This document shows, piece by piece, positions 21,726-62,358 of a DNA stretch of 64,000 nucleotides; position 1 is the stretch's first letter, and every line of letters begins with the position of its first letter. Source of the stretch: Cenococcum geophilum 1.58. Taxonomy: Eukaryota > Ascomycota > Dothideomycetes > Gloniales > Gloniaceae. A program made the translations under genes and the position numbers. The stretch covers positions 2,360,341 to 2,424,340 of the forward strand of contig KV748182.1 of NCBI GenBank assembly GCA_001692895.1. The letters run 5' to 3'. The notes beneath the pieces are model-generated. The model was not told the origin of the DNA and did not search any database. It saw nothing but the letters and a program-made list of their open reading frames with translations.

Positions 21726-21730
21726 ATTAG

Positions 21731-22746: not shown

Positions 22747-23495
22747 AATTCCTAAACTAATAATACTCCCCTTCCTCCAAAAATATAGCTATACCTACTT
22801 TAAATAACTAGGAAGACTCCTTACTACTAGGGGTAGCTACGTATATAAAATTTATTAATAAAAATTAGGACGAATTTACTATTAATATAATAACTTATAC
22901 CGCAAAATAAGTTAATAGCTTTCTCCTATACTATATTCTATTCTACTAAAGTAGATACTATACTAATTTATAACTATAGAAATATTTTAGGGAGGATTTT
23001 ATAGGATAGACCGCCAACACTTAGGCACTTAGTAATATTAATATTATTTAGAATTTCTAAGACTTTCTTTATAGAAATAGGGTATATATTGCTAAGAATA
23101 GTAACCTAATTACTAGCAATATTTAGGCTGTTATTATTAGTATAGAAGAACTAGTATAGACGGAAGCTAAGATTATATATTAACTATAAAAACCTAAAAC
23201 TAACCTATATTCTTTAGAAGGCAACTTTAATTTATATTAAAACCCCTAAAATACTAATCCCCTACCTAAAGGTACTCTTTTACTAAAAGGTGCTCTTCTA
23301 CCTAGAGGTGCTCTTCTACTACCCCCTTTACTACCTTTACCCTCTCTATCCTAGCTAACTAGTAAGCCCTTACTATAAGAAGTTATAAATCTAATAAAGG
23401 TATATTTAGATAGAAAAAAAAGTTTAAAGGAGAACTATATAATATACTTAAAGCAAAACTATAGGTTTTTTATAACTACTAGAATCTTATTATTG

Positions 23496-23531
23496 GGGAA
23501 GACGCAGCCGGATTTGGAGGCTCCTTCCCCC
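23496..23531 (+). repeat. Candidate left terminal inverted repeat of the Starship-like element
   Basis: Matches the reverse complement of 58,105-58,140 at about 19 of the first 27 positions (GGGAA, GCA, GGA and GAGGCT blocks). A further GGAGGCT copy follows at about 23,539. Confidence 0.5.
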
Positions 23532-24018
23532 CGTTTTAGGAGGCTGTTTCTCCTCGCTTAGACCTATATCTATCGCCGCTTTTGCAATATACTAAGCATG
23601 CCAAGGACGGTAGGGTCTTCCTTATTTACCTACTAAACCTAGAAGCTCCCCAAACGTCCCTCGGCGGCTAACGTTATTTAAGAAGCTATAGACGTCTACC
23701 ACCTACCTTTATCCTCATCCTTTGCCAAAAGCACTACCCTTACACGACGAAACCTTCCTTCTATACTACGCTCCTTCAACCCTTTTCCTATAGTAGCTAC
23801 GTATGCATTTTCCCCTACTATTATGTCGTTCACTTTTAATACTTAATTTCTAGGTTTCTACCCATGGGATTTTTTTGCCTTATCCCGCTCTTAAGAACGC
23901 CGATCTCCCGTAGAGCCTTTTTTAGCGTTCCTATTAATAGCAGTCGCTCTTAAGCTAGCTTTTATGTGTAAGCAACTAGTAGCTGCTAAAGCACTAAGAC
24001 ACTACGCGTTTAACCACC
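23532..24018 (+). promoter_or_regulatory. Leader region upstream of the captain gene
   Basis: About 490 bp between the left inverted repeat and the captain start codon. It is richer in C and less RIP-mutated than the gene. It contains pyrimidine-rich runs (CCTTTATCCTCATCC, CTCCTTCAACCC) typical of fungal promoters. No specific regulator site was identified. Confidence 0.35.
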
Positions 24019-26600
24019 ATGCCCTCTTAAAGTAAGAAATGGCGAAATATAGATTTAGCCTTTAGCTTAGACTCCGAACTAGGTAAGCTGTTTTATTCTA
24101 AGCTAGCTTTAAACTTAGATTTAAGCTCTAACTCTAGAGCTAGGGAAGACGCCGATTCTAAGGGGGAATATTTATAGTAGAGGATTGCGTATTATAAGGA
24201 TTAAGGAAGGGCGAAGTTAAAACGGAAGCCCTAGTCTACTTCTTTTATTAAGCGTAAGTTTCGGAATTAAGAAAAGTTCGTTTGTATTTAAACCAAAATT
24301 TACCTTATAATACTAATAATTTGTATTTAGGTTCTGCCTAAAAGTTAAGTCTAACCCAACTAAGGCCCTTCGTTAGTGTGTAGCCGACACGTTTAAAATA
24401 TACCTTAAATGGCGCGTAAAGAATTCTTAAATTAAGAAGGAAAGCACGATCTAGTTATACTGGAGATGAATACTATACAAATTTATAGATATGGTAGGCT
24501 ATAGTATGAATAATAGCATAGAACTTGATATATAAGATATAGGTAATCTTTAATTTTTTAAAAAAAAATCCTAGCTAATTTGTTACAGTGGATCCTAACC
24601 TACTTAACGCTAATATATAAGCTGGACATATTAGAGAAAGAAAAGGATGCTATATATATGCAGGACTTATATATAATTATTAATGCCCATTAAATAATAG
24701 ACGCGAAGCCTTACTATAGTCGTTTTCAAGTATAGATAGGAGTAATCCTCCTCCTCTCTAGTGCCACGGCAATAAGACCCTAAGCTCTTATTAAAAGTTT
24801 AAGCGTAAGAGGCTCCAATAAAGCGCTTTTATATAAATATATTACAATCCTAAGAGTTCGCAATGTAAAAAACTTTAATTAAACTATAACTGTTGCCCTT
24901 ATAAGTCTTATATATATTAAGAATTCTGGAGGCATAGGTAGACGGTATATAGCGACGTTAATTAAAGATGGCGCGAATGGTGCTAATAGACCTATAGTAA
25001 GAGGTTTATTTTCCGTCTTAAAAGTATCCTAGCTTTTTATATCCTATTCTATCTTATAAGCCTTACTATCATAGATAATGCATTTTAACGCCGTTACACT
25101 TCGCCGGAAGAGATTTTTAAATTTAAAATCCTAGTGAAAAAAGAGAGTCTTAAAGTGAAGTTCAAGAAGGAGATAAAGAAACGACCCATCTTTTGAGATA
25201 TTAAGATGATGGCTAGTTATAGGGGAGTGTCGGACACTAAAGCATTCCCTTACCAGAAATGCCGCGATTACTATATATAGTTAGGCCAAGTGGCCGGGTT
25301 TAAAAAATTGCTTAAACTTTACTAGCTACAACGAGCGTCTAAAAGGAAATTAAATAGTAAGTATCTAATTTGACATAAGTGTATATATTGACTAAGTTTT
25401 CTAGGCGCCCTTACTCTAGAAGAGCGAAATCAGACAATAGGTTATTACGGTAATACCTACTAACGGTTTTATTTACCTAATTTAATTAAGCGCGATTTCC
25501 AGTTAATTTACTTTGGGACTTTATTACAGGATGACCTTATTTAATATACCGTATAGATAGGGATCTTAAGGGACGAGCGGGCCCCTATAGGTCTAACTAA
25601 TAAGTAGAAGCTTAAATTCTAGCTAGAACTTAATTAACGCCCTAATATTCTATAGCTTTGCGAGAAATAAGAGCGATATAAGCAAAAGATCAGGAGCTAG
25701 GGATATCACCCTATTAATACCGCGAAGGGAATAAAACTATATAACCGTTATAACGAAGCTAGATATAAACTTTATAGTGTTACAAACGTCCTACGTAAAT
25801 AAAAAGAGGACTAGGTTATTCTTAATTTTCACAACGCTATTAACGATTACAATATTAAAAGACAGCTTAGTGGTAGCGTTAGGACGGAAATTCCCACCTA
25901 TTCAGCTGTATAGTATGAATTTCGCGAATATACTACTATTGCTAAACTACTGTTTTAGCCGCTAAATAAGCTTAAAGAAGGACACGCTATAAAACTCCGT
26001 ATAAAGTTTATCCGTAATCTTATTAAGTATTATAATTAATAAGAGAGTTGGTAGAATGGGATTCTAAGTAAGGCTATCGGATTTTAACTTGGGTCTAAAG
26101 TAGACTAAAGTATAATAGGCGTAAAAAGAGGTGCAAGTGACGCCGATACTAGTACCTATTAGTAGGCAAAGCGGCAGAAAGAATAGATTAGCTTAGACTC
26201 GCCTTTTTAAGAAAACCTAGATAAGACGCGGAGCGCGGTCCTAATTAAGGAAGAGGGTGTTAAGATAATACAGCTGCCGTATCCTATAACGTTTACTAAT
26301 CTTATTTATCTTATCTATATTGGTAATAACTAACTCTTAACGCTAAGGCAGACCCGCCTATTTATAAAGAAGGATATACTATAGAAGTATCTTAATAATT
26401 ACGTTACAGAAGGAGTATTTAGGTAAGGGTTCTACTATAAGCATCCTTATTACTTAGAGTAGATTAAAGGACTTAAGCATTTTAAAAATCACGCAGCCCT
26501 TATATATAGCGTATGGTATCCGATTAAGAGGCACCGCTAGGTAAGTTATCTTACCTATATGAGAATCCTATGCTAACCCTCTAGTATGTATAGAAAGGTA
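24019..26600 (+). pseudogene. DUF3435 tyrosine recombinase ('captain') pseudogene
   Basis: The enzyme family that excises and inserts Starships. ATG at 24,019 (context ACCACCATGCC) starts MPS. The N-terminal domain gives TFKIYLKWRVKNS and IKKESTI near 24,390-24,460, in another frame than the start, so an intron near 24,310-24,360 is possible. The first catalytic-core box reads LLLSSATAIRP near 24,750-24,780; its Arg matches the active-site Arg of these recombinases. Box II resembles LQRASKRK near 25,330. Then come ILRDERAPIGLTNK near 25,563, NRYNEARYKLYS near 25,740, and the C-terminal HFKNHAALIY at 26,478-26,507, a hallmark of the family. Length (~2.6 kb) suits the usual 700-900 residues. 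Stops are RIP-type and the gene is dead. The C-terminal Cys positions cannot be read safely. Confidence 0.8.
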
Positions 26601-26776
26601 TATAACTAGTAAATTTAAAACCATACGTTTTTTTATATATAGGACCTTTTCCTAGTCATTATACGCTTATCTTATTATTCTTTACTACTTTTTATTTTAT
26701 TTTAGTTTATTATTATCTAATTCTATTCTAGTATTTAGTAGAATAGATATAATAACTAGGATTTTATAATTCGTTT

Positions 26777-26872
26777 AGGGGGGTAAGGGGTAATAAGTAA
26801 GGGTAAGGGTAAGGGTGAGGGTGAGGTAAAGGATAAGATAAAGGGTAGGGTGAGAGGTAAGGTAAGGGGAGG
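26777..26872 (+). repeat. G-rich (GGGTAA)n-like tract
   Basis: Degenerate run of GGGTAA, GGGTGA and AGGTAA hexamers just downstream of the captain. It resembles telomeric repeat sequence (TTAGGG) only loosely. Several G3 runs at close spacing could form a G-quadruplex. Confidence 0.7.
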
Positions 26873-27028
26873 CTAATAAAAGATAGATAATATAGTTGTA
26901 TAATATCTAACGGACTGACTATAAACGAGATATATATTTAAATTTCTTAGATCAACCTAAACGGAGAAAGGAAGAGAAGTATTATATAATAACTTCCTAC
27001 CTAAGCTAATCTCCTAAGCTATGTATCT

Positions 27029-28034
27029 TTACTTATATATAATGCTTGCACCTTTTGTAACAAAGTATATAAGGGTGATTAGGGTCGGATAGATAACTGC
27101 TGTCCTTAATGTAATATATAAACTCAGCTTTATAATTAATATTACAATAGGTCCTAGTCGTGCAGAGGGTATTAAGATAGTTATTAATGTTTTCGCTTTT
27201 ATGCTTAGCCGCGGCATACCTTACCTTGGCGGATTAAAGTAGTGATTCTGTTTGTTATAGCTGAGATTGGATAGCTTAAAGTTTTAGTATAAAATTTTCC
27301 TCTATGTCCTTAGATGCGGTAATCGCTATCTATATAATACTAATAGCGAAATCGCCTATAACGTCTAGCTTTATAAAGTCCTTAAGTTTAATAAGCTCTT
27401 TAATATGCTTAGCCGTTATTAAGGTAATTATATTATATAATACTAAGTTACCTATTAGGTTAAAGACATCCTTAATAATATTAGGAAACCTATTTGCGGA
27501 CTAGCTGGTTCCTAAAATGTGTTAGATTTTTATATTTATAAGCTCTTTTAGCTGTAGTATATTGTAGTAATCGGTAATTGCATTAATATAGACGTGACGA
27601 AGTGTGATATAGGCCGTCGTCGGCTATATTATTATGTCTTTATTATCACCACCGCTATTATCTAGTTTAGATAGCGATAAGGCATCGGCGTCATTAATAT
27701 TAGATCCTTGCTCCTCCTTACTATTCTTATAGTCCCTCTTATACATAAATTAGATTATCCTCTTAACGGTACCGGAATTAAACTTATTAATATTTATAAT
27801 ATTAGTCGCTGCCTCCTACCCGTTAGTTAGTTAGTTAGGGTTAATTCCACTAGACGTTTAATTAGCTTTTACCTAAAAGCCTTTATTATAGGCAGCTGTA
27901 AGTATAGGAGATTAGGTATATATAATCGCTTTATAGACTTTAAACTCTAGCCCCTAGTATATAAGTTTTAAGTCGCTATATTTCTCGCTATCTATAAGCT
28001 ACGCTAAGCTAAACAGAGCACTCTTAGATGGCAT
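27029..28034 (-). pseudogene. BTB/POZ-domain protein pseudogene
   Basis: Fungal BTB/POZ proteins of this kind have a single N-terminal BTB dimerisation domain and often serve as adaptors for Cullin-3 ubiquitin ligases. The minus-strand ATG at 28,034 starts MPSKSALFSLA, then KYSDLKLIY, EFKVYKAIIYT and SPILTAAYNKGF, the classic opening of a BTB fold (KYSDL...C...F.VHK.VVC..S). Further on, an acidic Ser/Asp-rich insert lies near 27,640-27,720. ITDYYNILQLKELINIKI near 27,530 matches the helix ADKYD...LK.LA that follows the BTB core. 27,029-27,217 is still open for 62 codons. The 3' limit is uncertain. Key Cys and His are replaced by Tyr, as RIP does. Confidence 0.75.
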
Positions 28035-28750
28035 GTTTCTCTGGTTTTGACTACGCCTTAAGCAATATTTAAGGGAGTGATTTGGTATTAAATAGGACGA
28101 TTAAGAATGAGAACTCTGCTTTATTAAACGTGGCTCTAGAGCCTCTATATATACATTAAGAAGTTGTCATTAGCTTCGTCTAATCTGCGACGGATTTGGC
28201 TGGTTAGTTAGAGCTTTAAATGTTAGTTGCTTGACTAAGGACTAGTGTGACTTCTAAAGTTCTAGGAAGGGTAAGTAGTGGGGTCGGCCGCAGCGCCTAA
28301 AAGCAGTTAGGTCATATAATAGAGGCTTAATTAGAGGACGTATTCCTATAACTTAGGTTAAGGCTCTATACTCCTCTAAGCTATATTAAGTAAAGTTAAA
28401 TAGTATTATATTCCTGCGTACTAGCCTACTAATTACACTATTCCTGCGCCTTTAAGAGCGGTTTCTTAGCCGACCTTCTTGTTATTAGCTGGTCGAAGTA
28501 TACTTTTTAGATAAGGGGCACTGACTTAATTCTTAGTTAATTACTCCGTAAGTCTTAGAGATAGTATATTCCCTACTAATAACTTGCTAACTAAGCAAGC
28601 AGATTAATAAAACTAACCTTGCGAATATACTACTATATAAAGCTTAGTAGATAAAAATACATTTCCTAAATTAATAAGATTTAGTATAAAGAGTAATTAT
28701 ATAATGCTTTAGCATATTCAAGATACCTTAGAATTTTATAACTTTACTAT
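28035..28750. other. Spacer between BTB gene and Zn-cluster gene
   Basis: Partly GC-normal near 28,170-28,300, probably promoter DNA of the divergent or neighbouring genes. No motif was recognised. Confidence 0.35.
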
Positions 28751-28759
28751 TATTAGTAT

Positions 28760-29480
28760 TAACAAAATGTCATATAGGAAATGATTCACCTTCCTCTATT
28801 ATTAGTAGAGGGAACTCTCCTAGTACGTTAGATATTTATTTAACATTTTACGCATATTATAGAGGGCTTATACGTACTAAAATTAGTTAAGGGTACTAAA
28901 GAACAATGCTAAGAAGTAACGGAAGAAGTATATAATGCAGTATTATATATCTGCAGAGGTATAAAACCTAAAGGAGCTTAACCATACTCTATATTGCTAT
29001 AGTGCTTATCCCTTACGTGGCCGCACCTATATGGCGATGTTTTAGTTTTTTTAGAGAACCCTAGATATAAGCAAATCTAGTACTAGGAAATGCTTTTAAG
29101 GAGAAAATTTAGTTCTGGGTAATGCTGTTATTTAAATAAGGCTGCTGAGGAGTTTAAGGAAAATAGGATAGTAAATAAACCTAAGGACGGGGAGTAGAAC
29201 TAAACTCCTAGCATTAATTTATCCTCTTTATTTCCTATTATTCTCCTATCCGTCTTTTTTACCAGTTTTCTAGCCTCCTTTAATTTTTCTAGGAGAGTCG
29301 CCTAGTTACGCCTCCACTTATAAATATATTATAAACCTACCAGTAAACATTTTAGGTAAGGTTTATTGCTATTACCATTACACTTAAGTTTCTTTAAGGA
29401 GCATTAAAAGCACGATTTTATTCTCCTTAGTACTAGAATTCGTAAGTCTTAACTATAGCCGGCAACAGTCCTTTTTTCAT
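28760..29480 (-). pseudogene. Putative Zn(II)2Cys6 transcription factor pseudogene
   Basis: Reading the minus strand from about 29,412, one frame gives C-x2-C-x6-C-x7-Y-x2-C with LKKLKCNG between the second and third positions. This is the pattern of the GAL4-type binuclear zinc cluster (C-x2-C-x6-C...C-x2-C-x6-C). The fourth and sixth Cys read Tyr, which RIP makes from TGC or TGT. Next are YKWRRN and a basic, heptad-like EKLKEARKLVKKT, as in the linker and coiled coil after such clusters. The frame continues with RIP-type stops to about 28,760. No middle-homology domain could be seen, so the gene may be short or decayed. Zinc-cluster regulators are common fungal cargo genes. Confidence 0.45.
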
Positions 29481-29807
29481 AACGCCTTTTATATAACTTA
29501 AGGAGGTCACCTTAGAAGAAAGCTCTAGAGTATTTGTCGTAATAGTAGGTCAGCTCTTTAGCGTCTATAAGAGTTAGGAATATATACTACGGTTAAATGG
29601 AGTAGAGACTTACGGGATTTTTAGTATTAGTTTAAGTGCCCCACTCAAACGAAACTTCTTATATAATTACTATAGTTATATATATAAATTTTCTAATTTG
29701 GTAGCTACCCCTCTATAAGTGGACTGTTAACTCTAATAACTATAGGGTAGAGCATCCTTTTACTTACCTATTTCCATTCTATTACGGCAGTTAGTAGTTA
29801 AAAGTAA

Positions 29808-30490
29808 ATGGCTGAGTTTATATATAATATTAAAGAGGTTTAAAATGCAGAAAGATATAAAATTAAAAATATGGACTACTAAGAGGAGGTGGGATATAAA
29901 GTTTCTATATATCGACGTAGCGCTAACACTAATATTATATATAGAATGATCTGGCGTATTGACGATTAATATAATAATATAAGTATTCCTAATATAGAAC
30001 CCTAGTTTCTATTTAAAGCGTAAGGTGTCCTACTATTTCGCGTTTTAGATAGTAGAAGAGTAGAATATAAAAAGTTAAAAAGACAGACTATTAGGAAGTA
30101 GACTGCTAAGCTAAACCTCTAGAAGTTTTAGAGAGTCTTATATTTAGAAAATATTACGTAGGTAAAAGGAGCGAGCGAGGAAAAAGGGCTATATCAATTA
30201 CCTATAATGCTTGTAGGGAACACGCGCTATACTTGTTGCTATTATTTGGAGTATATATACTCTTAAATTGTTTCGGTTTTAAGACGGCTTATCTTCTTAA
30301 ATAGGTAATAAGCTTTAGGGATGAATCTAATTAGCTCCTACTAAGCCTATTAAACGATTATATTTAAGGCTTATAGAATGTAGGGAGTCGCAGAATAAGG
30401 CTTAGGTTATCTAACCTTAAGGATCTTCCGCGATTTAGCTTAAATTATATCCAGGATGACATTAAGAGGAAAGAAAGTAATATTAGCTTT
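29808..30490 (+). pseudogene. Unrecognised protein-coding relic
   Basis: ATG at 29,808 (MAEFIYNIKEV) opens a frame of about 220 codons broken only by TAG/TAA, which argues that it was a gene. It gives SIYRRSANTNIIYRMIWRID, LKRQTIRK and GLYQLPIMLVGNTRYTCCYY. No domain was recognised. Composition is basic and without obvious membrane spans. It lies just left of the 4.2-kb element bounded by inverted 31-bp arrays. Confidence 0.4.
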
Positions 30491-30546
30491 TTGATTAGCT
30501 CTCGTCTAATTTATAGCAGAACCCTAAATGGTTTGGTGGCTTATAG

Positions 30547-30676
30547 TGCCTACCGAATTCTAAACGCCTTCGCACCGCAACTATTAAATTATGGACGCCT
30601 TCGCATTATAACCACTAAATTATAGATACTTTTGTACTGGGACTACCAAATTATGGACGCTCTATACTGTAAGCAC
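30547..30676 (+). repeat. Left 31-bp array
   Basis: Units of exactly 31 bp: ...CTATTAAATTATGGACGCC..., ...CCACTAAATTATAGATAC..., ...CTACCAAATTATGGACGC.... Inverted relative to 34,622-34,742. Confidence 0.8.
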
Positions 30677-31519
30677 TAGTATAAGGAGCCCCATATTAAG
30701 ATCTAATCCAATTATAGCATGCGTATTAGATTTAACAGTATTAGTAATAGATCCCAGTAGCTTAAGATAGTAGAGGGGATATACTTAATACTTATCTAGT
30801 ATTTATCTAGAGGGCCCTATATAGTGTTATGTAATATAAGCTCCTATATAAATACTTTATTAGTTTCTAGCACTCTTTAGTAGCAACGGGGATTTTAGGT
30901 ACCCTGCTTTTCTAATACTTAAAGCGACATACGTTTTTTTAATTAGTAATCCTTTTTATTTAAAAATAAAATGCTTAATTTTATTGCTATTATTTAATAT
31001 CCTTTAATATCTATTCCCTTTTATTTGCTACTAGTAATATATAATTATACCCAGGTTTACTATAAGTATACTTATCTCCACTACACCATAAGAGCTTAGT
31101 GTATGAAATACCAGGAGATATAGAAAAGATATCCGGTAAACGTTATCGTAATATAAAAGTAAACACCTAAGCCATTAATATATAACTAATTTTCTATTAT
31201 AGTAAATATAGGCTTAATAAAAACTGCGGTATGCCTCTATAGGTCTATATAGAGGCCTAAGAAGCTTATATAAGAATTTCTTCTAGGTGACTGTAAAGAT
31301 ATATTAAACCGAGAGGCTTACTTAAATATATATAAAAAGGTAAAGGAGGAAATTATTTAACGAATATAAAGGGGGCTACGCATTGCTGGCAAAGGGCGTG
31401 TACAACTCTCTTCTTTATAGATGCACTGTAAATAAGTATTTAGGGTAGAGAAACCAAACTATCTCTAATAAAGCATTTAATGTGTTTTAAACCTAGCGAT
31501 AAGTCTAGTTATTGTATAT

Positions 31520-31610
31520 GTCCGGCTTGTGGCTTAGTTATGGCCGGAATTAAGCGGTTAGCGCTGCTAAATTCCGCCTAACTTAACGCACTAAGCCTTA
31601 GCCCCTGGAC
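31520..31610. repeat. Fold-back (MITE-like) sequence
   Basis: A 91-bp near-palindrome from GTCCGG to CTGGAC centred at about 31,565. The arms share GGCTTAGT and CCGGAATT...AATTCCG blocks. It is GC-richer than its surroundings and could fold into one long hairpin. The size fits a very short MITE. No clear target duplication. Confidence 0.5.
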
Positions 31611-32300: not shown

Positions 32301-32392
32301 TAAGAAGAGTATATTATAAGATTATATTATTTTAGAAATGCTTATAAGATATAAACTTGTAATTGGCGGAGGCTAGCAATTAAATAAAATAA

Positions 32393-40035: not shown

Positions 40036-40700
40036 GCTTTAGTCCTATAAGCTAGGAGGTTATAGGAGCTAGGGGATCCTATAAAGTAGGTGATTATATA
40101 AGTATAGTAGTCTAATCTAGCGCCCTCTAATTAATGCCTGGCGTGTAAATAGGGTATTAATAGGTTTAATAACTTCGCGGCTTTAATCCTACGAGCTAGG
40201 CGATCGTGCGAGCTAGATGCTTATAGGAGCTAGCTAATCCTACGAGCTAGGTGATCGTGCAAGCATGGTACTTATGGGAGCTGGGCAATCCTATAAGCTA
40301 GGTAATCGTATAAGCTAGGCGATCGTGCGAACTAGGTAATCGTGCGAGCTAGATGCTCGTGGAAGCTAGGCGATCCTACAAGCTAGGTGATCGTGCGAGC
40401 TAGGCGATCATGCGAACTAGGTAATTATGTGAGCTAGATACTCATAGGAGCTAGGCGATCCCACAAGCTAGGTGATTGTACGAGCTAGGTAACTATGCAA
40501 GTATAGTGCTTATAGGAGCTAGGTAATCCTACGAGCTAGGTAATTATATAAGCTAGGTAATTATGCGAGCTGGGTAATTATACAAGCTGGGTAATTGTAT
40601 AAGCTAGGTAATTATATAAACTAGGTAATTATACGAGCTAAGCGATTATACAAGTAGAGTAATCGTGTAAGCAGAGTAATTATATAAGCAGGGTAATCTA
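40036..40700. repeat. 17-bp minisatellite with flanking direct repeats
   Basis: About 30 units of 17 bp like GAGCTAGGTGATCGTGC fill 40,187-40,690; a short array of the same kind starts at 40,036. A ~40-bp direct repeat, CTAATCTAGCGCCCTCTAAT and TGCCTGGCGTGTAAATAG (near 40,110-40,155), recurs at 40,691-40,735 as CTAACCTAGCGCCCTCTATT. A further AGCGCCCTCC lies near 39,989. Array blocks thus alternate with a common spacer. Units toward the right are more T-rich, as if more strongly RIP-mutated. Confidence 0.85.
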
Positions 40701-40739
40701 ACCTAGCGCCCTCTATTAACGCCTAGCATATAAATAGAA

Positions 40740-44689: not shown

Positions 44690-47070
44690 TCTCCTAATTA
44701 GAGATAATTAAAACGAAACCTATCGGAGAAGGACTGAATAACTTTCACAATTTATTTAACTTAGTTTATTAGAATCTAGACATCTCTAGCTCTTTAGACT
44801 TATTATACTAGATAGGTAATAAAGGTAATTGCTAATATACCTATTATAAGTTTCCATCTAACGCTTATAGAACTAAAGAATATTTTGCTCGATCTAATAC
44901 TAGCTCTATAGGGCCTTCCCACTTCTTATTTATTACTATCTAACGGCAGTAACAAAAGGCTTCTTATTAATCTATTGAGACTTAATTCAGCGGTCGGTTC
45001 CAACGACTTTAATATTAAGCAGTTCCTACCTCTTCTAAATGCGATCCTTCGGATTAAACCTAACAAGGTTATTTAGAAAAAGGCATACGCCACCATAACA
45101 GAGTCTACGCCTCCTCCCTAACCGCTACTATTCTACGTTTAAACCCCATATCTACGCAATATAAGCAGCTTTACTAACTCGTCCGAATATAGGAAATACG
45201 TAGATTATATTCTAAAGGAAGAGCTAGGCCCTCTTTACGTAGGGATTCCTGGCTTATATAAAGTATTCTTTAGGGGGGTAGAAGGTCTTAAAGAGGCAAG
45301 CGCTGCCGTTTTTAAGAAATATAAGGAAGGGGACAATCTACTATACGCTAAGGGTGGCTGGCGTAACTAGCCTAGAAGCGCAGAGTAAGATAATGTCCTA
45401 GAGTGGTTTAATAACCTAATTAAATTATTTTTAGGCTTTGTAGAGGAGTATGGGTCCGCCCTAAAGATATAACAAACGCTTATTATATATACTAAGCAGC
45501 CCTTATAAGGGTCTATAGCAAAGCGAAAGCTAAATATCGGTTTTGTGGATGATCTAATAACTAGCAAAAGTTCTTAATGCTATTAGTTATATATACTTAT
45601 GCCAGGAGAGCTAAAGAGTAATCTAAACACCAATATAGCCTCGCAGGCATGGTTTAATTTGGGAAAATATATAAGAGAAGTTTTTGCTGCTTAGGACACT
45701 CGTCGCTTTATCCTAGGCTTTACCCTCTATAGATCTATTATACGGCTATAGGAGTATAACCAAGTAGGAGGCATTATATTATTACTATTCGATATTAATA
45801 AAGACGGACTATAATTTACCTCGGCAATGTTAGGGTTTCTCTAAATAAATGAGAAGCAGCTTAGGTTTAACCCTACTATTTTAACATCGGACGGTAAGCA
45901 ATATATTAAGGTTATACGCAATAATTAGACCGAGCGTCTTATCCTTAACAAACCTATAAAGCGGGCACGCTATATCGCCAGTTAAGCGACTACTTGCTAA
46001 AAAGTACACCATAAGGGGGATATCTCTAAGATACCCCTCATTATTAAAGACTCGTAGCAGTACCCGTAGCGCGAGGAAGAAGGTAAACTGCTGCGTAAGG
46101 TAACAGAGAAAGAAGTGGTTAATATAGCTAGGTACTATCACCACAAGACAGTTTATATAGGCGGTAAAGAAGATAATATTTGCAATAACGTCCACAAGGG
46201 GCTAAATATTACAAGAGCAACAAACTATAAGCTAGAAGACTTAATAATACCTTTAAAACCGGCTAGAGTAAAAATCAGTATAAGGCAAGGCCGAAGTTCT
46301 AGTAGAAAAAGGTTGTCTAGCTACACTAACGCCCTATTACCGCTTAGCAAGCGCACGTATTCAAGCTCTCCGCCTAAAGGCGGAAGGCGCCTTATAACCC
46401 TAAATTAAGTGCATTAACGCGTTATTACTAGGGACTATAAAAAGCCTCTTTACGAGGCAAGCTCTTAGGCTGCAATACTTACTGCACTAAAGGGTGGCAT
46501 TAAAGGATATAAGTCTTTATATACGCGGGCTAGCATTATCTAATATAATATTTTAATAGGCAACCTTATAATAAACAAGGAAAACAATAATCCTTTTTAG
46601 CCAGCATTCTTAATCGACTTCGATCTTGCGATTAAGGAGCAGCAAGAAGGGCCTTTAGAAGCGCGGGGCAAGACCAGCATAAGAGCGTTTATGGCGATTA
46701 GAGTGCTCCTAGGCGAGATATACTTAGCTTAGCATAATTTTAAGTCGTTCTTTTAGGTGCTATTCTAGATATACATTCACTATAATAGACCTAATAGGAA
46801 AGGTAATATTATTAATAGGTTTAATAAGTGGAATTCTATAGATATAGAAGAGCTAGCTAAGATAAAGAAAGGAGAAGTGGATAACAAAGGGGATTTTCTT
46901 AAGGGTATAGGTGATAACTTTTTACCGTACTATTAGCTACTAATCCCTTAGGTTAATAGATTGCGGAAGGTAGTATTTCTAGGTAGTAGGAGGCGAAAGG
47001 GAAATAATGAAAAACTTCCTTCTTAAATAAAGGAGGTGCTTTAGGAAGCAAGGAAGGATCTAAAGGTGCT
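44690..47070 (+). pseudogene. FunK1-type fungal protein kinase pseudogene, copy 2
   Basis: The more readable of the two FunK1 copies. The N-terminal region ends YRKYVDYILKEELGPLYVGI, GDNLLYAKGG and IGFVDDLITSK. An N-lobe-like region has MPGELKSN, ILTSDGKQYIKV and ARYYHHKTVYIGG. After a basic Ser/Arg-rich insert (RQGRSSSRKRLSSYTNALLP) come VHRRVI-like text, the catalytic-loop equivalent ILIGNLIINKENNN near 46,545-46,590, and IDFDLAIKE near 46,610-46,640, where DFD replaces the usual DFG, as is normal in FunK1. GKTSIRAFMAI follows. 46,115-46,408 is open for 97 codons. Stops elsewhere are TAG/TAA from RIP. Function in fungi is unsettled; these genes expand in accessory compartments. Confidence 0.85.
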
Positions 47071-47489: not shown

Positions 47490-48312
47490 GAGGCTATAGG
47501 AGAATTAATCCCCTACTTTAGCTAATCCCCTACTTAAATAAGTCCCCTACTTGAACAAATCCCCTGCGGGAGCTAATGCCCATATATTTCGCCGCCCTAT
47601 AGAAACCAATCCCCTACTTTTAATAATCCCCTATAGGATCTAATCCCCTACTCTAATAAATCCCCTACGGGATCCACTCCCCTATAGGATCCACTCCCCT
47701 ACGGGATCCACTCCCCTATGGCAATAAATCCCCTACAGGATCCACTCCCCTACGGGATCCACTCCCCTACGGCAATAAATCCCCTATAGTAATAAATCCC
47801 CTGCGCTAACGAATCCCCTATAGGTGCTAATGCCTACGTGTTTTACCGCCCTATAGGAACCAATCCCCTACGGCTTATATTCCTATATGGCTTTTACTCC
47901 CCTACGGGGGCTAATAGCTATATTTTCCTCTCCTGTACGGGAACTAATGCCCTATAGCTTCTATTCTCTATTCCTAGATCCAGATACTATTAGCTATATC
48001 TTTTACTCCCCTATGGAATAAATCCCCTATAAATTCCGTTCCTATATATAGTAACTATATCTTCTACTGCCCTGTAAGAACTATACCCTATAGCTCCTAC
48101 TCCCATACGGCTTTTACTCCCCTATAAGAACTAATGGCGATTTTTTCCACTCCCCTACGGAAACTAATCTCCTATAGCTTGCGGTTCTCTATGGGGGTTA
48201 ATACCCGCTTTCTCCGTTACCTTATAGCTTTTAATTCCTTACAGGAACCAATACTTATATCTTTTACTCCCCTATAGGAACTAATGCCCTATAGCTTCTA
48301 TTCTCCTATTCC
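47490..48312 (+). repeat. Short tandem repeats 3' of FunK1 copy 2
   Basis: Irregular array of CCCCTACGGGATCCACT, CCCCTATAGGATCCACT and CCCCTATGGCAATAAAT units (17-20 bp). Many units centre on a small palindrome (CCCTAYGGG or CCTATAGG). It matches the tract at 11,750-12,345. Confidence 0.8.
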
Positions 48313-48559: not shown

Positions 48560-50990
48560 TATATAAGTTTCTCCCCCTTACTTTTAGCTAAGCCATAACT
48601 AATCCGTATAGTGTTCTTAATCTAATATAGTATGTTAGCACTAGCCTCAAAACTCTCTCTTAAATATTGCCTTGCCTGTCTTCCGTTTAATTAATGGTTT
48701 AAAAGCCGCTCTATATCCTTTTTAGAGATATTAGCAGTAGTATTGGCTTACTTTAGGAAGGTTTTCCATACCTACTCTCTTGCTAGTTTCTTTAGCTCGT
48801 TATATCTAAGTGTAAGATGTATTCTACTCTATATAGCTGCATTAAATACGGTAATTCTGTTTGTTATGAGAAACATAATACCTTAGAAATACTCTATCTA
48901 TCGCAGGAAGACGGATACTAAGCTGTTACGTTAGACATTATTTAAAGTTCTTTTTATAAAAAAGACATTGGCCTTATCTAGAAGAAGGACAGCGCTCTAG
49001 CAGTAAATGTTCTTAACTATTAGAGCCAGGTTTTGTTCTAAATGGGCTAGATCCGTATTAAGGTCTCCTATATAAGCCTTATTATAGTCAGACTGGTATA
49101 TAAATATACTTATAAAGGGGAACAAACCACATAAAGGGGTCTCCTCTAATATTCGGCAAGTGCTTTAGCTATTAATGTCTTTCCTACCCTAGGTGGGCCA
49201 CTAAAACGGTCAGCCTTTAAAACAGCTAATGCCTTACCAGAAAACTTACTGTAGTAAGAAAACTAGGCCTTTCCCCTTCCCTTTAATTATATTATTAAAC
49301 TTTAATTTCCTAGACCTAGACTAGTAGCTCTTATAAGTCCTTAAAGTACCATTTTCTTATCCTCCTTAATTGCGAGTGACTTAAATGCTAAGGCATTCTA
49401 TTTAATATCCTTAATGTTAGCGACGGCAAATTTACCTATTAGTGCTTGTATTAGTATATATAATTCGCTAGCTCTAGAAACAGTATATAGAAAGCCTAAC
49501 CCTATTTTTTATCTGCTAAACTAAAGGCTAGGGCTGTTAGTAGACAGATTAGATACTTATTATCTCCTATCTCCTTAGGAACTAAACGCTAATTCTTTAC
49601 GTCCCCTTGCCAATTGGTCCCTTAATTAATTACGCTTATTCCGTACGCATCTATAGCGATTAGTTGCTTGCTATAGTTAGGATTCTAATAATAAAATGCT
49701 ATCGCGTCCACCATAATGCGGCCGCTTATAGAAAATCTCAACGGGCCATCTTTAGTCCAGAAAAATACGATCCCTTTATATTTACGGTAGTTAATATCTC
49801 TTAAAGACACGAACTTCTAGCTATTACTAATAAGATCCTACTTTATCTCGGCTTGTCTCTTATAACGCTCTAGCGGAAATACTTTAAGAGATATAATTTT
49901 TATAGTTAAACAGAATTCCGGAATAGAGAGGGTGGTTTTTACCTCGCCAAACGCCTTCCTATTATAGCTAAAATAGTAACAGTTAAGTTCGAAGCTCTTT
50001 TCGCCAAAAAGTGAGGTTTTAAAGTTGCCTAAATTATATATAAGGCATCTTAATTAATCCAAGCCTTCGTAAATCGTAAGAACATGCGTATTTGGTTTAA
50101 ATAAGGCCCAAAGAAAATTGAAATTAATTTCGCTATAGTGTAGAAGCGGCAGGAGACTATTAGTTATAGGCGCGAAATGGTCTTTAAGGAATTTTAGTAA
50201 CCCCTAAAAGTATTTAGCGCCGATTAAGTTGGGAGAAAGACTCTCCTAGTATGTTTTTAACTAGGGTAGGAAATTAAATATAAGGTTTATAGGAATCTAG
50301 AAGTTAAATTAGAATAAGCTATATCTATAAAAAGGTCCACTTACTATAGGCTTGTCTTCCCGAAGGGAGATAGCTTATACGCCGTTTAGCACCACCTATA
50401 AGGCGTCTCTTACTTCTCCTAAATTTATACTTAGGTACGTACTGCAGTCTTTCTTATCCTTTTCTGGCTTAAAGTCAGCATCTAAGTTAATATATTTAAA
50501 GGCACCTAAAAGATAAACTAAATTTCTTCCGAAGGATATAAATATACTAATTATATATATCACGCTCACTTAACGTATCCGGCGAAGTCTCTATAGTCTT
50601 ATACTGGCAGTTTTATTTATCCCAGCTGTAGTAAACGCTATATTAGCGTATTTCTAAGTATATTTTAGGGATTTCGCGAATATACATCTTATTTAACACC
50701 TTAACTTTAACCTTAGAACCTCTTACTTCGGGTATCTCTTTAACCCCTAAACTCGTAGGGGGAGGTAGAGGAGGTAGAGGAGGTGGAGGAGGTTAGGCCG
50801 CTTAGACTATCTTTAATACGGCTATAAGCACTTTAACTATAAGATGCTGCGCTAACTGCCTATAATATATATGCGTTTAGCTTAGACTACTAGGGGGGGT
50901 ATTATAAGGCAGTAAAGGCGCTGGCGTAACGGGCTTAGATATAACTGGTATTATTACTCTATAAAGCTTTAGTAATATAACACTGATCTA
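48560..50990 (-). pseudogene. Second AAA+ ATPase pseudogene
   Basis: Minus-strand reading from a Pro-rich leader (PPPPPLPPLPP, 50,757-50,801). It continues to VKEIPEVRGSKVKVLNKMYI, a long N-terminal domain, and an ATPase domain with an intact-looking Walker A (FSGPPRVGKTLIAKALAEY, plus-strand 49,170-49,235). Walker B reads SAVLLLDKANVFF near 48,960-49,000; the Asp is kept, while Lys and Asn replace Glu and Asp. IMFLITNRI (sensor 1) and SRIHLTLRYNEL follow. The same broad family as the gene at 575-11,290, but the two differ enough not to be recent copies. The domain order suggests an ATP-driven remodelling factor of unknown target. RIP-type stops throughout. Confidence 0.8.
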
Positions 50991-51272
50991 AAGAAGGAGC
51001 TAAGTGGAAAGTGGAGCTAGATAGTATTGTTTTTTAGGCTAGATCCGCCCTTTTCTTATATAATATAAGCTGTGCTATAGGTATATCTATACCCCTCTTC
51101 TAATAATAAGCTACCTTCCCCAATTAATCCTAGCAAACTTTAGTTAAGACATATTAATATCGTCTCCGTTATGGTAAATAAAGCTATAGTATATGTGCTT
51201 ACCGTACCTGTAGAAATAGTCCCCTAGCTTATATACGGGATTTCAACTCCAGCACTAGAGCGAGCTTAAAAA

Positions 51273-51332
51273 AAGACATTGCCTAAAGTATAGAAGTGCT
51301 CTAATTAACATATAGGAGATAGGCAATGTCTT
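51273..51332. repeat. Short inverted repeat (AAGACATTGCC/GGCAATGTCTT)
   Basis: Perfect 11-bp arms at 51,273-51,283 and 51,322-51,332 with a 38-bp loop. It may be a tiny hairpin element or regulatory structure between the two divergent genes on either side. Confidence 0.55.
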
Positions 51333-51444
51333 AGGTCGAATTAAAGATATAAGTGCAGAATTAGTGCTAGCAATGCTAGCCGGATTGCAGCAAGCGATCT
51401 GGCTATGCATTGTTTATCTAGGGGAAGTGGCATATAATTGGGCT

Positions 51445-51600
51445 AACCGTCCCGTCCCGTCCCATCCCGTCTCGTCTTGTCTCGTCTCATCTCGTCTCTT
51501 CCCTTCCCTTCCCTTCCTCCTTTCCTTCCCGTCTCTTTTTATCCCGCTCTTTCTTATCTTAGCTCTCTTTATCCTTCTCTTTATTCTTAGTTAAACTTCT
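51445..51600. repeat. Pyrimidine-rich pentanucleotide tract (TCCCG/TCTCG)n
   Basis: Runs of CCCGT, CTCGT and CCCTT units upstream of the next gene on the plus strand. CT-rich tracts like this are common just before fungal transcription starts. It is hardly touched by RIP. Confidence 0.75.
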
Positions 51601-51616
51601 AATAGTACCAAATGAC

Positions 51617-52560
51617 TAGTTTTACGAGCTACTTAAGGAAAAAAGAAAGACGTTCGACGCTAATATATATCCATTACCCTCCTACCAGAACAACGCGTTT
51701 AAATCATGCCTTAAGGTACTATAAGAAAACGTGATATCCTTAGAGAAACGATCAAGCTCGCGACAAAGTGTAAAGCTACATACACGCACTCTATTAACGG
51801 ACGTTTTCATCAGCTTAGGTCCTAAAATATTCTTCCTATACACTTTAATAGCGCCTATCTCAAAGCTAGCAACAATATCGGTAAAAAACCTCCTCCGAGA
51901 GCTTCGAGAATAGTAGGAGAGTTACCCCCACCCCCGCAGTCTTATAGTTGCTGTAAGTACACTTTATAAGGCCAATTTAATTAGCACGTTAATTCCTTCG
52001 CCTCTAAAACGTCTATCTTTAGAGGTAGATCCCTCTACTAGTATAAAAGAGCCTTATATTTTAAATAAATTATTAATAAATATTATTAGAGGAACACCTA
52101 ACATTAGCCTAAGACTTTTGGTTATTAGAGAGGCATTCTAAAGCTCTAATCCCTTAGGACGCTTATTAAACGCTTGGTATATAAGTCTTAAGTACTCGTT
52201 AATTAGTTACTTATATATTTTAGAGCCAGATTTATTATAAAAGGAAAGTATAATCTTATCTAATAATCCTAAAACCAATAGTTAGATACCTTGTTCCCCA
52301 AATTTAATATATTAATACTTATCTAAGATAAACGCTTCTTCTAAGAGTCCTCCAAGCGCCATTATACTAGTATATCATTAAGTTATAAATAAACCACCAT
52401 TAAAGCGTCCCCAGTTAAAATTATAGCAAACTCTAGGTCTATAAAATGACCTTTAATAAGATATTATATCTGTGGTTAACATTAAACAGGAAATCCAATA
52501 TTGCTAGGGAAGGGCTAGTACTTATCTTTCTTATTTATAAGGCGCCATATAATTAAAAAT
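51617..52560 (+). pseudogene. Unrecognised gene, first third nearly unmutated
   Basis: One frame runs from about 51,617 to 52,560. The first ~300 bp have almost no stops: FYELLKEKRKTFDANIYPLP, then NAFKSCLKVL, ENVISLEKRSSSRQSVKL, IFFLYTLIAPISKLATISVK and NLLRELRE. Downstream the same frame has RIP-type stops (IKEPYILNKLLINIIRGTPN, LVIREAF). The start codon is unclear: an ATG at 51,612 is out of frame and the GTG at 51,731 is unlikely in a eukaryote. No family was recognised. Low mutation load in the first part suggests it was unique sequence, or that RIP faded across it. Confidence 0.45.
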
Positions 52561-53559
52561 CTCCCTAAGCCATTTCGCACCAGGATAGAAATAAGCAATT
52601 TATAAAGAAAGGAAAAAGAGAGCGGAGGACTAGCGGTTATAAATTGCCTATCTATATATATGCCAGAAATAGACAATAAGGACGCTCTTTTATTAGTTAA
52701 GATCGGCTACAAAAATAGATAGAATATCTTTAAATTATTTGGTTTGGGGGACCTAGATACTTTAAAGTTTTAGGAAAATACTATAAAAGAAGCTAAAGAT
52801 TAACTCTTATCCACAATAAATGGCATATATCGCTTTAGGTTACCACTTATTACTACCTCTTCTTATTACCTCTTCTCTAACTTAACCCGTGCCCTTATTA
52901 TATAGCATTTATACCCAGTAAGAACCTCTCTTGTTACTTATCCATCTTCTATACCTAAATATTTAACTAGCTTTCCTTCGCCGTCTTTAATATTGCATAA
53001 TCTGCCTTTAAATATCATAGTTATATCCTCCGTTATCTTAAATATATAACCTCCAATCTCCTCCTATTCCCCACTAATCGCCTTATCCCCGGCCTTAGCG
53101 GATATAATCTATATAGCTAGAAATGCGACTACGCAAGTCAGCGGGACTAGTGGCTATAAAAGAGAGGTATTCTATAGACGTGTAATATTAAGCAAATATT
53201 ATCTTTTATAAAGCGTTTTTAATTATAGATAGCCATCTAAGGAGGAATAGCGGCTGATTTAGGAATTTATTTTAGAATAAAAGGCCGTAAAGCACATGCG
53301 CATTAAAGCACAACTATTATAGAAGATATAAGTAATTAGGCATATACTGCGCGGAATAGCCAAGCTAATATTTACCTTAATAGCAAGAATAGAATTGCTA
53401 GATAACTATAAGAGGCAGAACGTAAAAAGCATAAAAGGAGGTAGATTATAGGCTTAAACGGAGAGCAGCTTTACGGAACTGCGCTACGAATAATTAGCGA
53501 AGTAGGGTTAAAGGAAATTTATAAGGGAAAATAGAGGTATTACTGCAGTTAATAGGTTT
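52561..53559. other. AT-rich region, possible continuation of neighbouring genes
   Basis: Both strands have coding-like stretches with RIP-type stops. The minus strand may be the 3' part of the gene at 53,560-54,143. No motif was recognised. Confidence 0.3.
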
Positions 53560-54143
53560 ATAGCTACTTAGTTATTAATGCCTAATAGAAAGGCTTATAT
53601 AAAAGAATTGCTAAGCGGCTACCTCTCGGACTAAGCTGCGGCCGGATTTGCCCTGCCCTACTATCAAAGCTTTCTAGCGCAGAATATTATGTATATAATT
53701 AGGCCACCAGCTAAACAACGGGTAAGGCGTCCACTATAATGCGCATTTCAACTATACATTAGCCGAAGTCTAGGGGATTAGAGTTACTAGATATATATAG
53801 CCCCTCCACTAACTAAAATATCTCTAAGGATTAGATTCTTATAGCTTGTTCTTATTTATAAGGCAAATTAACTATAGCTAGTTTATACGCCTTTACATCG
53901 TATATATAAGTTAATCAATTATTAACGCCTAACTTTATATTATTCGGACTACCGCTCAGTTTCAACTATATTACATAATTTTAATTAGCTAGCCAAGTTA
54001 TAAACGTAGTTTTAGCCTTACATTTTCTATCGTCTGTAGCGTTATAAGTGGTAATAAGTAGCTCTTGCTTACCGCCCTTAAAAAAGTAATACTCTTATAG
54101 ACCTTTTTATGCGGCCCTTAAGCTTACAGCTTTAGACGACATT
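53560..54143 (-). pseudogene. Unrecognised gene relic
   Basis: Minus-strand ATG at 54,143 starts MSSKAVSLRAA and a single frame of nearly 200 codons with RIP-type stops only: FFKGGKQELLITTYNATDDR, KAKTTFIT, LKLSGSPNNIKLGVNN, YDVKAYKLAIVNLPYK, VEMRIIVDALPVV and SFDSRAGQIRPQLSPRGSRL. No domain known to me. The frame appears to continue left of 53,560. Confidence 0.45.
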
Positions 54144-54880
54144 ATAGTTAGGCGATTATATATAGTATAGCCGGCAGTATAGTTTATAAGGGCTTAACTT
54201 TTTTAAATTAGAAATTATAGGACGTTATAAGAAATGCGCTATAAATAGAATAAGCCAAAAGTAGAACCTAAAGCTAGAAAAAGATCTCTAAACCAAAAAG
54301 AAGGGCACTACAATTACTACCGTCTCTTCCGCCCGGCAGGCCGGCCCCCTTTCTTCTACGCGGTAGGCCAGGCCTTTAATTTCAAATAGTAATACGCCTA
54401 TAGTAATCTAAGACTTCTTTCTAGAAAGCGGTCTTTAATCTATTCCTATAGAAGATTACGTCCTTTCTTTAATTTAATAAGCAGCGCGTCTTCCTCTTCA
54501 GTGAATTTTATTCTAGACTTTAGCCCTTAGGGCTTTAGCTCCTAGGGCTGCTCAACTAGGTTAAAAGGTAAAGGGAATTATTAAGGAAGGATATCTAGTG
54601 CATATAACCCATCTTTCTAGCGCCTAAAAGCTGCTTAGAGTAAAATTTCTTCCGAATTAGCATTTAAGGTGGCTCCTGGTATTGCTTTATTGGAGTTAAA
54701 GCCAGAGGCGGGGCTTAGTAGCGGTTTTTAGGTATAGAGGCAATTATATATAGGGGATACAACCCACTTATAATAATTGCTAGTAAGCGCAATGCTTTAG
54801 TTAGACGCATGCATAGATAAAATTAAAGAGGAATAGTAAGACCGCTGGAGATAATACTTCGTAACACGCTTTACCTTTAA
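54144..54880. other. Spacer with a GC-rich patch
   Basis: 54,325-54,375 is GC-rich (CCGGCAGGCCGGCC palindrome-like core) against an AT-rich background. No gene was recognised. Confidence 0.35.
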
Positions 54881-54899
54881 TTAACTAGTAATAGGGGTT

Positions 54900-56181
54900 A
54901 GTAATCCTCATTACCCTATACACCCGCGGGCCTCATTACCCTTATCGCTATTACTACTGTCATTATCCCTAAAGTCGTCATTACCCATATCGTCACTATT
55001 ATTACTTCCGTTGCTATAGTTCTCGGCCTTATCTTCGTCTATAACGTTCTCGCCATCTTTATTATCGCTTTCTTTAGCTAAGCCGTTAACAAGATTATCT
55101 AGAATACAATTACGACTTTTATTAGCCCCATTCTTTAATAGTCTAGTATTATAAGGAGATATATAGTACCAAGAGAAGGAGCTAGTGGGCCACGCAGTAA
55201 AGGCTGCTCGCTCCTTAATACCGTCACCATTATTAAGGCTAAGGGTAGGAGAGCTAGAAGGCGTAATCCTCCGGGAAGCAGGTAACCTTTATTACTTCCT
55301 AGGTCGTACGCTCTCGCTACTCTTACTAACAGAAGTATTAGAGATATAATTAATGCTACCTAGTTAATTAAGCTAATTAGACCTCCGCTTTTTTAACTTC
55401 TCGGCTCCTAAAGACTCTTAACTAGCAGCCACTAATATCCTAAGCTTTTACCTAAACTGCGAAGTAGTTCTAATGCGACGCCCCTTAGCTAAATTATCCG
55501 TTTAATTGCTGTTTAGCGTTGAGGGTATAGTACGATTATGCGTAGGTACGCGTATCTCCTCTTCCAGCGCTTCTAACAAAGGTAGCTCTTTATTATCTTT
55601 ATTGCCCTTACCACTACTATTATTCCTATTATCTACTAATTATTAAATAAGGCCATTGTAAATTAAAAGGGAAAGCGTATACCTAATCTATAAGGTATTA
55701 GTCGATTATCGGCTTTATTAACTTTGTTATTAATATTACTAGCTTTATTACCCTTAGTTTCTAAGTCCAGATTGGCTGTATCATCTTTAATAACTATTAG
55801 ATTTGCTATTAGTTATTAAAACTACATATTTAAAACTTCTAGGGAAAGAGGGAGAGTAGTAGGGTAATTACTAGGATAATTACCTTAATTACTTCCTCCA
55901 GAGACTTAACTGTCATTTCTATCCCTATAGAAATCTTCCTTATTGTCCTCGTTATCCTTATTATCCTCGTAATACTTATTATTAGCTTTCTTATAATTAT
56001 ATATAGGGTCTATAGGCGCTTTATTAGACGGAATATCTAAATTAAGGCCCTAGGTGGAATAATATACTATTAAGTGCCCAAGCTTATAATGCTTCTTAAC
56101 TTTTTAGGGGGAAAAGAGGTACTCCCCTGCTCCTCCTTTCAGGCTTACTACTCGCGTTTTTCTTAAGGGCTGTAATTGCAT
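54900..56181 (-). pseudogene. Unrecognised acidic, low-complexity protein relic
   Basis: Minus-strand ATG at 56,181 starts MQLQPLRKTRVVSLKGGAGE. In the next frame a long Asp/Asn/Glu-rich text follows (NNKYYEDNKDNEDNKEDFYR). Later come a Ser/Arg-rich part (RRITPSSSPTLSLNNGD) and another acidic tail (ESDNKDGENVIDEDKAENYS, NSDKGNEARG) near 54,930-55,090. The protein looks disordered, as many fungal chromatin-associated or accessory proteins do. The frame change after the start may be an intron. No domain was recognised. Confidence 0.45.
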
Positions 56182-58104
56182 AGTGCTAAGATAAAGCTAT
56201 TAATTTTTTAGGGGGACTAGTATAGAAATTATTCTTATTAAGTGAAATTTTAAAAGGAATACAAAATAAAGACTAAGGTAGTGCTAACGTTATTATTATT
56301 AGAGTTACTATTATTTTATAGCTTTTAAAAGCTTTAAGGGGGAATTAAAGGTCTTTTTAAGTGCACGTTAGTTCTCCCTTCGCCGCTAGCACTTACCTAT
56401 CGCCCCTTACCCTTTACCCCTTACCTAAGTTTCTTATTAAATTAAAGCATTTAATATATGCGCCTCTGGCATAGACTGGGGTTAATTACCGTTTATAAAG
56501 TATAAAGGTTTGCAAGGGCTTAAATTCCTAGCACCTAATTAACACCCTTAGCAAATTGCGATTAAACCATATCTATCCATCTAAGCTAGTATATTTAGCT
56601 TTAACACAGTTATTACATCTAGCCCCTTATTAGGAGGTTAGTGGCTTAAATTCTCTACCCTTATTCCTTAGTAAAGGGCAGTGCTAACGTATCTATTCAC
56701 TTCCTAATAATGCCAATCCAGCTAATCTTCTGCGCCGCTCGTATTAATAGGATATAAAGCCCCACTTATATATGCGCGTTATAAGCTATCTATAACGGAA
56801 GGAGGTAGTATTATTATTAGTGGTAGGCGGGGTTCTCTAATACTAACCACCTAGTGACGGATACGCCTGCCGCTTATATGGTGATTGTATACAGATACAT
56901 AAATAAACTAGGTAAAGGACTGCATAGGGTACTACATAAGGTGCTATATAATGCTCGCCCTCCTAACATGGCTGGCTGGTATTAGATTCCTTTATAGTCG
57001 TGCCGCAGTGCTATAGATCTATTATACGCCTAAAAGCTACAACCTTCTAATTTTAATCTAGGTAGTTCCTACTATAGCCCCATAGCTTAGAAGGCCGGAT
57101 TATCAATCCTTTACCACTCTGCCGCTAAGTAGTTAGGCAGAGCTAACAGCCCCTTAGCCCTAAACTAGTAGATTAAACGGTGTCTCTAAAACATCTGTGG
57201 TAATACAACTATACCACTAGGTAGGTATGCATAGCCACCCAGGCAATACTCTATATAATGTCCGTTTAAATAATACCTAACACAGCCCTATATAGGGTGG
57301 TTGCTTAAATCGGCGACATCTAGCTGATTTTCCGCTGGGTAGCCTAATAGGCATACTAGCTATAATATAGGTGGCTTTAGCCATCGGTAAATGCTAAAGT
57401 GGGCCGTCTAACTAACAGCATATCCTAGGTAAGAAAATAGCGCGTAGGTTAGCTAAAACGAGTGCGACATAAGCTCGCTTAAGCCCTTAAGGGGGCGGAT
57501 ACGGCACGCCTGTCCCTCCCTACCTTAGAAGGAGATATGCAGCAGAGTTAAATAAGACAATAGTGCTGACGCGGCTGGTAACTGCGGAATTCCCCTAACC
57601 CCCTTCTTATAGGACGGTTGCGGACTAACGCTATCTAGAAGGCAAAAGAAGAGAGGGTGTATATAAGAAAGAGAATAGAATTGTAAGGATATAGACGCGC
57701 TTAGCGGACAGAGGTGGCGCTAAAAGAGCTTAATAAAAATTAAAGCCATCGGCTCTAGAGGCGGGAATTAAGAGAGGAGGTTAAGACCGTCTATACATTA
57801 CCGTAGAATAGAAACTCACCTATTGGAAAGGCCGTAGTTAACTATATTAATTGTTAGTCTAAGATACGGGGGAATAAAGTAATAAGTGGGCTAGACTTGC
57901 ATATATATTAGCGCTAAAGGGACGGCAGAAATACCTTAATGTAACTATACCAGGGACTAGCAGCAAGAAGAGGAGGAGGCGCAGTGTTAGAAGAAAGGAA
58001 AGATGGAGGATAAGAGGAAAAGTAGCGAGAGAAATGGCCTTTTATGGTTAAGGTCAAGGGGCAGTCTTGGCTTGGCCGGGGTCAACAAGCGAGGGCGCCT
58101 TGCC
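56182..58104. other. Less RIP-mutated 3' margin of the Starship-like block
   Basis: GC rises here and CpA/TpG are better kept, notably 56,380-57,540 and 57,960-58,140. No coding frame with family resemblance was found. A purine-rich run (GCAAGAAGAGGAGGAGGCGC) lies near 57,961. A tRNA-like stretch lies at 57,060-57,135. Confidence 0.4.
57060..57135 (-). other. tRNA-like sequence (weak)
   Basis: On the minus strand TTAGCGGCAGAGTGGTAAAG resembles a tRNA D arm with A box. A TTGATAA loop sits where the anticodon loop would be, and CTATGGGGCTATAGTAGG follows in the T-arm position. An acceptor stem of AACTACT with AGTAG can be drawn. Pairing in the anticodon and T stems is poor, so this is at most a tRNA relic or tRNA-derived SINE end. 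Confidence 0.25.
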
Positions 58105-58140
58105 CGTAAAGGAAGCCTCTATTTCCTGATGCAGTTTCCC
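58105..58140 (-). repeat. Candidate right terminal inverted repeat of the Starship-like element
   Basis: Inverted partner of 23,496-23,531, about 70% matched over the first 27 positions. Ten bases (GCGTAACAAA) separate it from the heptamer ATAACTA at the Copia boundary. Confidence 0.5.
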
Positions 58141-58150
58141 GCGTAACAAA

Positions 58151-62353: not shown

Positions 62354-62358
62354 ATTAG

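Follow-up and report, generated by a model that had tools for sequence, protein, structure and literature searches.

A probable RIP-degraded Starship-like transposon lodged within a split Copia-like retrotransposon

Cryptons are small tyrosine-recombinase transposons of a few kilobases and are not known to have cargo or inverted ends. Starships carry their captain gene at the 5' end, and the curated elements described in one account have direct repeats in 19 of 20 cases and inverted ends in 18 of 20 (PMC12153272). The same account already mentions Starships inserted into smaller transposons and the degradation of multi-copy Starships by RIP, and describes the starfish workflow as one that leans on predicted genes and empty sites. 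In Gaeumannomyces tritici, a type A Starship is described as gene-poor and extensively affected by RIP, in a study whose elements span 34 to 688 kb (PMC11905480). On the evidence of these accounts (PMC11905480 for RIP; PMC12153272 for nesting and RIP), both RIP-degraded Starships and Starships lodged in smaller transposons have been published, and the locus reported here is, on our reading, a further example of an established kind.

The locus is a block of 34,672 bp in a 64-kb stretch of DNA, the whole of which was analysed and is called the window below. In common with the Starship superfamily, the block has an inward-reading captain-type gene near its 5' end, inverted ends, a length of 34.7 kb with cargo, and insertion at a single site; unlike a typical Starship, its genes have been erased by RIP, its direct repeat is insecure and half a kilobase of target is missing. 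A tyrosine recombinase is common to the block and to Cryptons, from which the block differs in being 34.7 kb long with paired ends. The type A Starship of Gaeumannomyces tritici, compared here by description only, is likewise gene-poor and RIP-ridden, whereas its description in PMC11905480, in so far as that source was available, states no placement in a retrotransposon. A sequence-only reading of this DNA had proposed a Starship-like transposon, and the inward captain-type gene, paired ends, size, cargo and single target-site duplication (TSD) around the retrotransposon all speak for it. Because a captain-type end gene, matched ends and cargo coincide within a single resident retrotransposon, a dead Starship is the best account of the block, with a probability of roughly 0.8.

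Self-comparison of the window found two copies of one LTR element, an undivided copy (A) and a split copy (B), which together define the insertion:

1574-7943, minus strand: Copia copy A, undivided, from self-comparison; a stand-in (paralogous) empty site
1,569-1,573 and 7,944-7,948: TSD of copy A, ATAAG
21726-21730, plus strand: left TSD of copy B, ATTAG, outside the left LTR
21731-23478, plus strand: left part of split Copia copy B, with its LTR at 21,731-21,948
23479-58150, no strand assigned: inserted block, 34,672 bp, placed by the break in Copia homology; borders uncertain by about 10 bp
58151-62353, plus strand: right part of split Copia copy B, with its LTR at 62,136-62,353
62354-62358, plus strand: right TSD of copy B, ATTAG, outside the right LTR
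5893-6397, minus strand: 505 bp of copy A without a counterpart in copy B where the block is inserted

In both copies the LTRs are flanked by a 5-bp TSD, as expected of an LTR retrotransposon, and the shared duplication ATTAG that had been claimed for the outer LTRs is present at both positions. The LTR pair of copy B is 93% alike, differing by 15 transitions and no transversions over 218 columns, and copy B differs from copy A by five transversions in 697 columns in one part and 19 in 3,692 in the other (0.005-0.007 per site). As the LTRs differ by transitions only, and both parts show low and similar transversion rates against copy A, the two Copia parts are, by sequence comparison, halves of a single element into which the intervening 34.7 kb was later inserted. 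We take the element to be Copia from a likeness seen by eye; no Pfam retroelement domain was detected in nine pieces of copy A or six of copy B. Copy B also holds a small GC-rich insertion at 22303-22751, with 102-bp terminal direct repeats 95% alike, resembling a miniature LTR element; a GC-rich stretch of copy A at 7305-7560, absent from copy B, aligns poorly to it.

Homology of the left part of copy B to copy A runs up to 23,485 (6,398 in copy A); that of the right part sets in at 58,151 (5,892 in copy A). Over 300 bp, GC rises from 0.29 to 0.47 across the left border and falls from 0.467 to 0.267 across the right, with steps as large or larger (over 200 bp) at 1.4% and 0.35% of places tested, respectively. 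The block had been said to separate one Copia element exactly: the splitting of a single element stands, but not the exactness, as 505-519 bp of the target are missing. Copy A, taken as a paralogous empty site, carries 505 bp more than copy B, and the loss comes to 519 bp (173 codons) when counted between the ATAACTA words of copy A at 6,405-6,411 and 5,886-5,892, a spacing that is a multiple of three. One frame of these 519 bp presumably resembles fungal Copia gag, although stop counts in the three frames (34, 80 and 43) do not single out the gag-like frame. An insertion of 505 bp in copy A was set aside given the spacing in whole codons and the gag likeness; a loss in copy B is preferred over a gain in copy A but, the stop counts being indecisive, falls short of proof.

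The same heptamer provides a candidate direct repeat at the borders of the block:

23472-23478, plus strand: candidate direct repeat ATAACTA, left (weak)
58151-58157, plus strand: candidate direct repeat ATAACTA, right (weak)

The repeat is weak: the window contains ATAACTA 80 times, and when places in the two Copia parts were paired at random in 20,000 draws, a common 7-mer turned up in 1.6% (tight) to 20% (loose) of them. The repeat was rejected as a secure target-site duplication, the word being too frequent, and a 7-bp direct repeat at the borders is unproved. An overlapping alternative, ACTAGA, lies at 23,478-23,483 and 58,154-58,159. Against the published target site A(N3)CTA(N17)T (PMC12153272), the first part of ATAACTA fits and the last specified base does not, in a motif too short to weigh. 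The half kilobase of Copia was presumably lost before, at or after integration, perhaps via recombination between short repeats. In a more specific scheme, the captain would have used a pair of ATAACTA words in the Copia gag, spaced by 519 bp, and exchanged 173 codons for the 34.7-kb element as a cassette rather than simply adding the element. Copy A has both words, and ATAACTA flanks the block on either side, yet an ordinary microhomology deletion, whether it preceded or followed the insertion, would explain the sequence just as well, and cassette exchange is very unlikely. A literature search for target site deletion by Starship captains returned no papers, which says little. The missing half kilobase turns into a testable question how cleanly Starships integrate.

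For the gene content of the block, Pfam was run over all six frames of 23,301-57,692 in seven overlapping pieces, with stops written as X, covering all but the last 0.46 kb of the block:

25041-25952, plus strand: DUF3435 captain-type tyrosine recombinase pseudogene, best stretch (PF11917, E 5.5e-28)
27663-27995, minus strand: weak BTB match (PF00651, E 0.0031, 18.1 bits, below the cut-off of 20.5)
29344-29415, minus strand: very weak zinc-cluster match (PF00172 Zn_clus, E 0.086, 13.4 bits, below 21)
45572-46771, plus strand: FunK1-type kinase pseudogene (PF17667 Pkinase_fungal, E 4.7e-81)
49122-49205, minus strand: weak AAA match downstream of DUF7025 on the same strand (PF00004, E 0.025, 15.4 bits, below 21.2)
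49865-50149, minus strand: DUF7025 domain, probable AAA-ATPase pseudogene (PF22942, E 3.7e-18)

Only DUF3435, FunK1 and DUF7025 exceeded the Pfam cut-off, and three of the seven pieces returned no match. The captain search of the six-frame translation succeeded in one frame only, DUF3435 being absent from the other five frames of 23.3-28.3 kb: the match reaches 98.5 bits (cut-off 25.8) over profile positions 104-392 of 418, and its core, which lies about 1.6 kb from the left border and reads inward on the plus strand, is the first Pfam match met on entering the block from that side, just as the sequence-only reading had placed it. The remaining gene content proposed there fared unevenly, with the FunK1 kinase clearly present, the AAA+ ATPase probable by way of DUF7025, and BTB, zinc-cluster and AAA all falling below cut-off. 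Two further sub-cut-off matches were set aside as weak, namely DUF6873 (E 0.087) and, within the kinase, Get5_bdg (E 0.074). With FunK1 and DUF7025 aboard, the block at 34.7 kb exceeds the size expected of a Starship (above about 15-20 kb with cargo). Queries of viral and prokaryotic contig collections with the captain, and of viral contigs with FunK1, returned no relatives, which says little given the makeup of those collections; sequence searches of the PDB with captain and FunK1 gave none, ARAGORN and Rfam (at the gathering threshold) gave 0 in the window, and no paper linking FunK1 to a Starship captain turned up in the literature searched.

The ends of the block pair with one another as follows:

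23487-23526, plus strand: left inverted end, identical to the right end in 30 of 42 columns
58109-58149, minus strand: right inverted end, pairing with the left

Inverted repeats matched at about 70% had been described at the edges, in keeping with these 30 of 42 columns, and each end is the other's best inverted partner among 18,226 placements each (both strands, step 7). Scanning from the left end, the partner scores 34 and the runner-up at a separate place 28; from the right it is 30 against 28, a small margin. Random pairs of 80-mers attain the same score in 65 of 2,910 cases within the block and in 16 of 3,000 GC-matched pairs from the window (84 of 2,910 and 36 of 3,000 with transitions scored as neutral), so the pairing is only moderately rare compared with random places. 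The window yielded no other element bounded by the same ends.

The sequence of events proposed would begin with a large tyrosine-recombinase transposon, its predicted captain near the left (5') end and reading inward, whose cargo included a FunK1 kinase and a probable AAA ATPase with a DUF7025 domain, if not more. Its target would have been a Copia-like retrotransposon that the genome already harboured, entered in the 5' (gag) half, and RIP would later have acted across the whole region until the genes became unreadable. The insertion into one retrotransposon, the captain domain and its orientation, the paired ends and the RIP signature are observed; that the captain moved the block, and that the insert arrived as one unit, we infer.

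It is worth noting that the FunK1-DUF7025 cargo is not unique to the block, as a second pair, missed by the sequence-only reading like the loss at the junction, lies outside it:

1-807 and 9336-16139: diverged counterpart, in inverted orientation, of block 43.6-50.4 kb (possibly to 51.3 kb), its FunK1 and DUF7025 convergent as in the block
843-9335: pogo-like DNA transposon, with 57-bp inverted ends at 843-899 and 9,279-9,335, 81% alike
9608-9901, plus strand: second DUF7025 domain, outside the block, inverted (PF22942, E 5.3e-19)
12928-14112, minus strand: second FunK1 pseudogene, outside the block, inverted (PF17667, E 1.3e-57)

Lenient blastn, which yields many chance matches in AT-rich DNA and of which only long collinear runs were used, aligns 43.6-50.4 kb of the block with 16.1-9.3 kb in inverted orientation. 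Block sequence at 50.5-51.3 kb may continue at 807-1, where there is one lenient blastn match (E 6e-18) and an alignment of 716 columns against 56-242 in three controls, and no match in the protein comparison. Transversions per site are 0.037-0.051 in the FunK1 segment (43.70-48.38 kb) and 0.21-0.22 in the DUF7025/AAA part. As nucleotide controls are equally diverged (0.18-0.25), homology of the latter part rests on its Pfam matches and on protein comparison of the block with the outside pair (E 2.2e-34 and 4.4e-20). Two ages appear within the outside segment, the FunK1 part being much closer in sequence than the DUF7025 part. A recent copying of the outside FunK1 segment from the block was rejected, and its transversion rate, above the 0.005-0.007 between Copia copies, suggests that the FunK1 copies parted before the Copia copies did. 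The pogo-like transposon, which has a DDE_1 match at 7,972-8,475 (E 8.1e-08) and contains Copia copy A, lies between the 807-1 and 9336-16139 segments, apparently inside the outside DUF7025 gene or next to it. A weak PigL_N match (E 0.0028, below cut-off) neighbours the outside FunK1 locus at 18949-19188.

Counting against a Starship are the 505-519 bp of missing target, the weak direct repeat, the moderate end score and the presence of FunK1 and DUF7025 outside the block. The missing target, the weak repeat and the collinear FunK1-DUF7025 segment would also suit repeat-rich host DNA put into the Copia element by break repair or ectopic recombination, with half a kilobase lost on the way and DUF3435 there by chance. 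Such an origin is unlikely: DUF3435 stands at the edge, reading inward, and the ends of the block are mutual best inverted partners.

Nesting elsewhere in the window, with Copia copy A inside the pogo-like element, lends something to a view of the block not as one Starship but as a stack of smaller elements, a short DUF3435 element among them, as do captain-type genes unconnected with any Starship, which are reported in PMC12289983. We consider a stack distinctly unlikely: the pairing of the ends spans all 34.7 kb, and the six frames of 23.3-57.7 kb yielded no other transposase or retroelement domain, although RIP hid the Copia domains likewise. That the two Copia parts were independent truncated elements, and the block never an insertion, is barely credible; the parts do tile imperfectly, with about 0.5 kb absent, but they lie on the same strand within one common 5-bp TSD, have LTRs that differ by transitions only, and combine complementary breakpoints with similar divergence from copy A. 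A dead Starship therefore remains the preferred reading.

Damage by RIP extends through the whole AT-rich window, whose 32 segments of 2 kb have composite RIP indices between 0.68 and 1.55. Together with DUF3435 and FunK1, RIP points to a filamentous ascomycete as the source. Within the block the index is positive in 137 of 137 windows of 500 bp, and the only stop-to-stop frame of at least 120 aa is one of 125 aa at 54,911-55,288, which agrees with the earlier description of a RIP-degraded element in which no ORF survives. Six-frame Pfam searching that masked stops as X brought out a captain and cargo despite the near absence of open frames, and copy A of the resident retrotransposon, lying nearby, was usable as a stand-in empty site. 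Because Starship finders depend on gene prediction and on empty sites, RIP-erased Starships in AT-rich regions are probably undercounted.

The GC least depleted by RIP (0.425) is found at 20-22 kb, and dense minisatellites with units of 12, 18 and 20 bp occupy 19540-20930. Open frames and weak Pfam matches over these minisatellites look like repeat artefacts; DUF445 (E 0.0036) and nine weaker matches there were set aside as weak. Tandem arrays with a 17-bp step occur in the middle of the block (40173-40708) and in both copies of the FunK1 segment (47509-47905 and 12047-12346).
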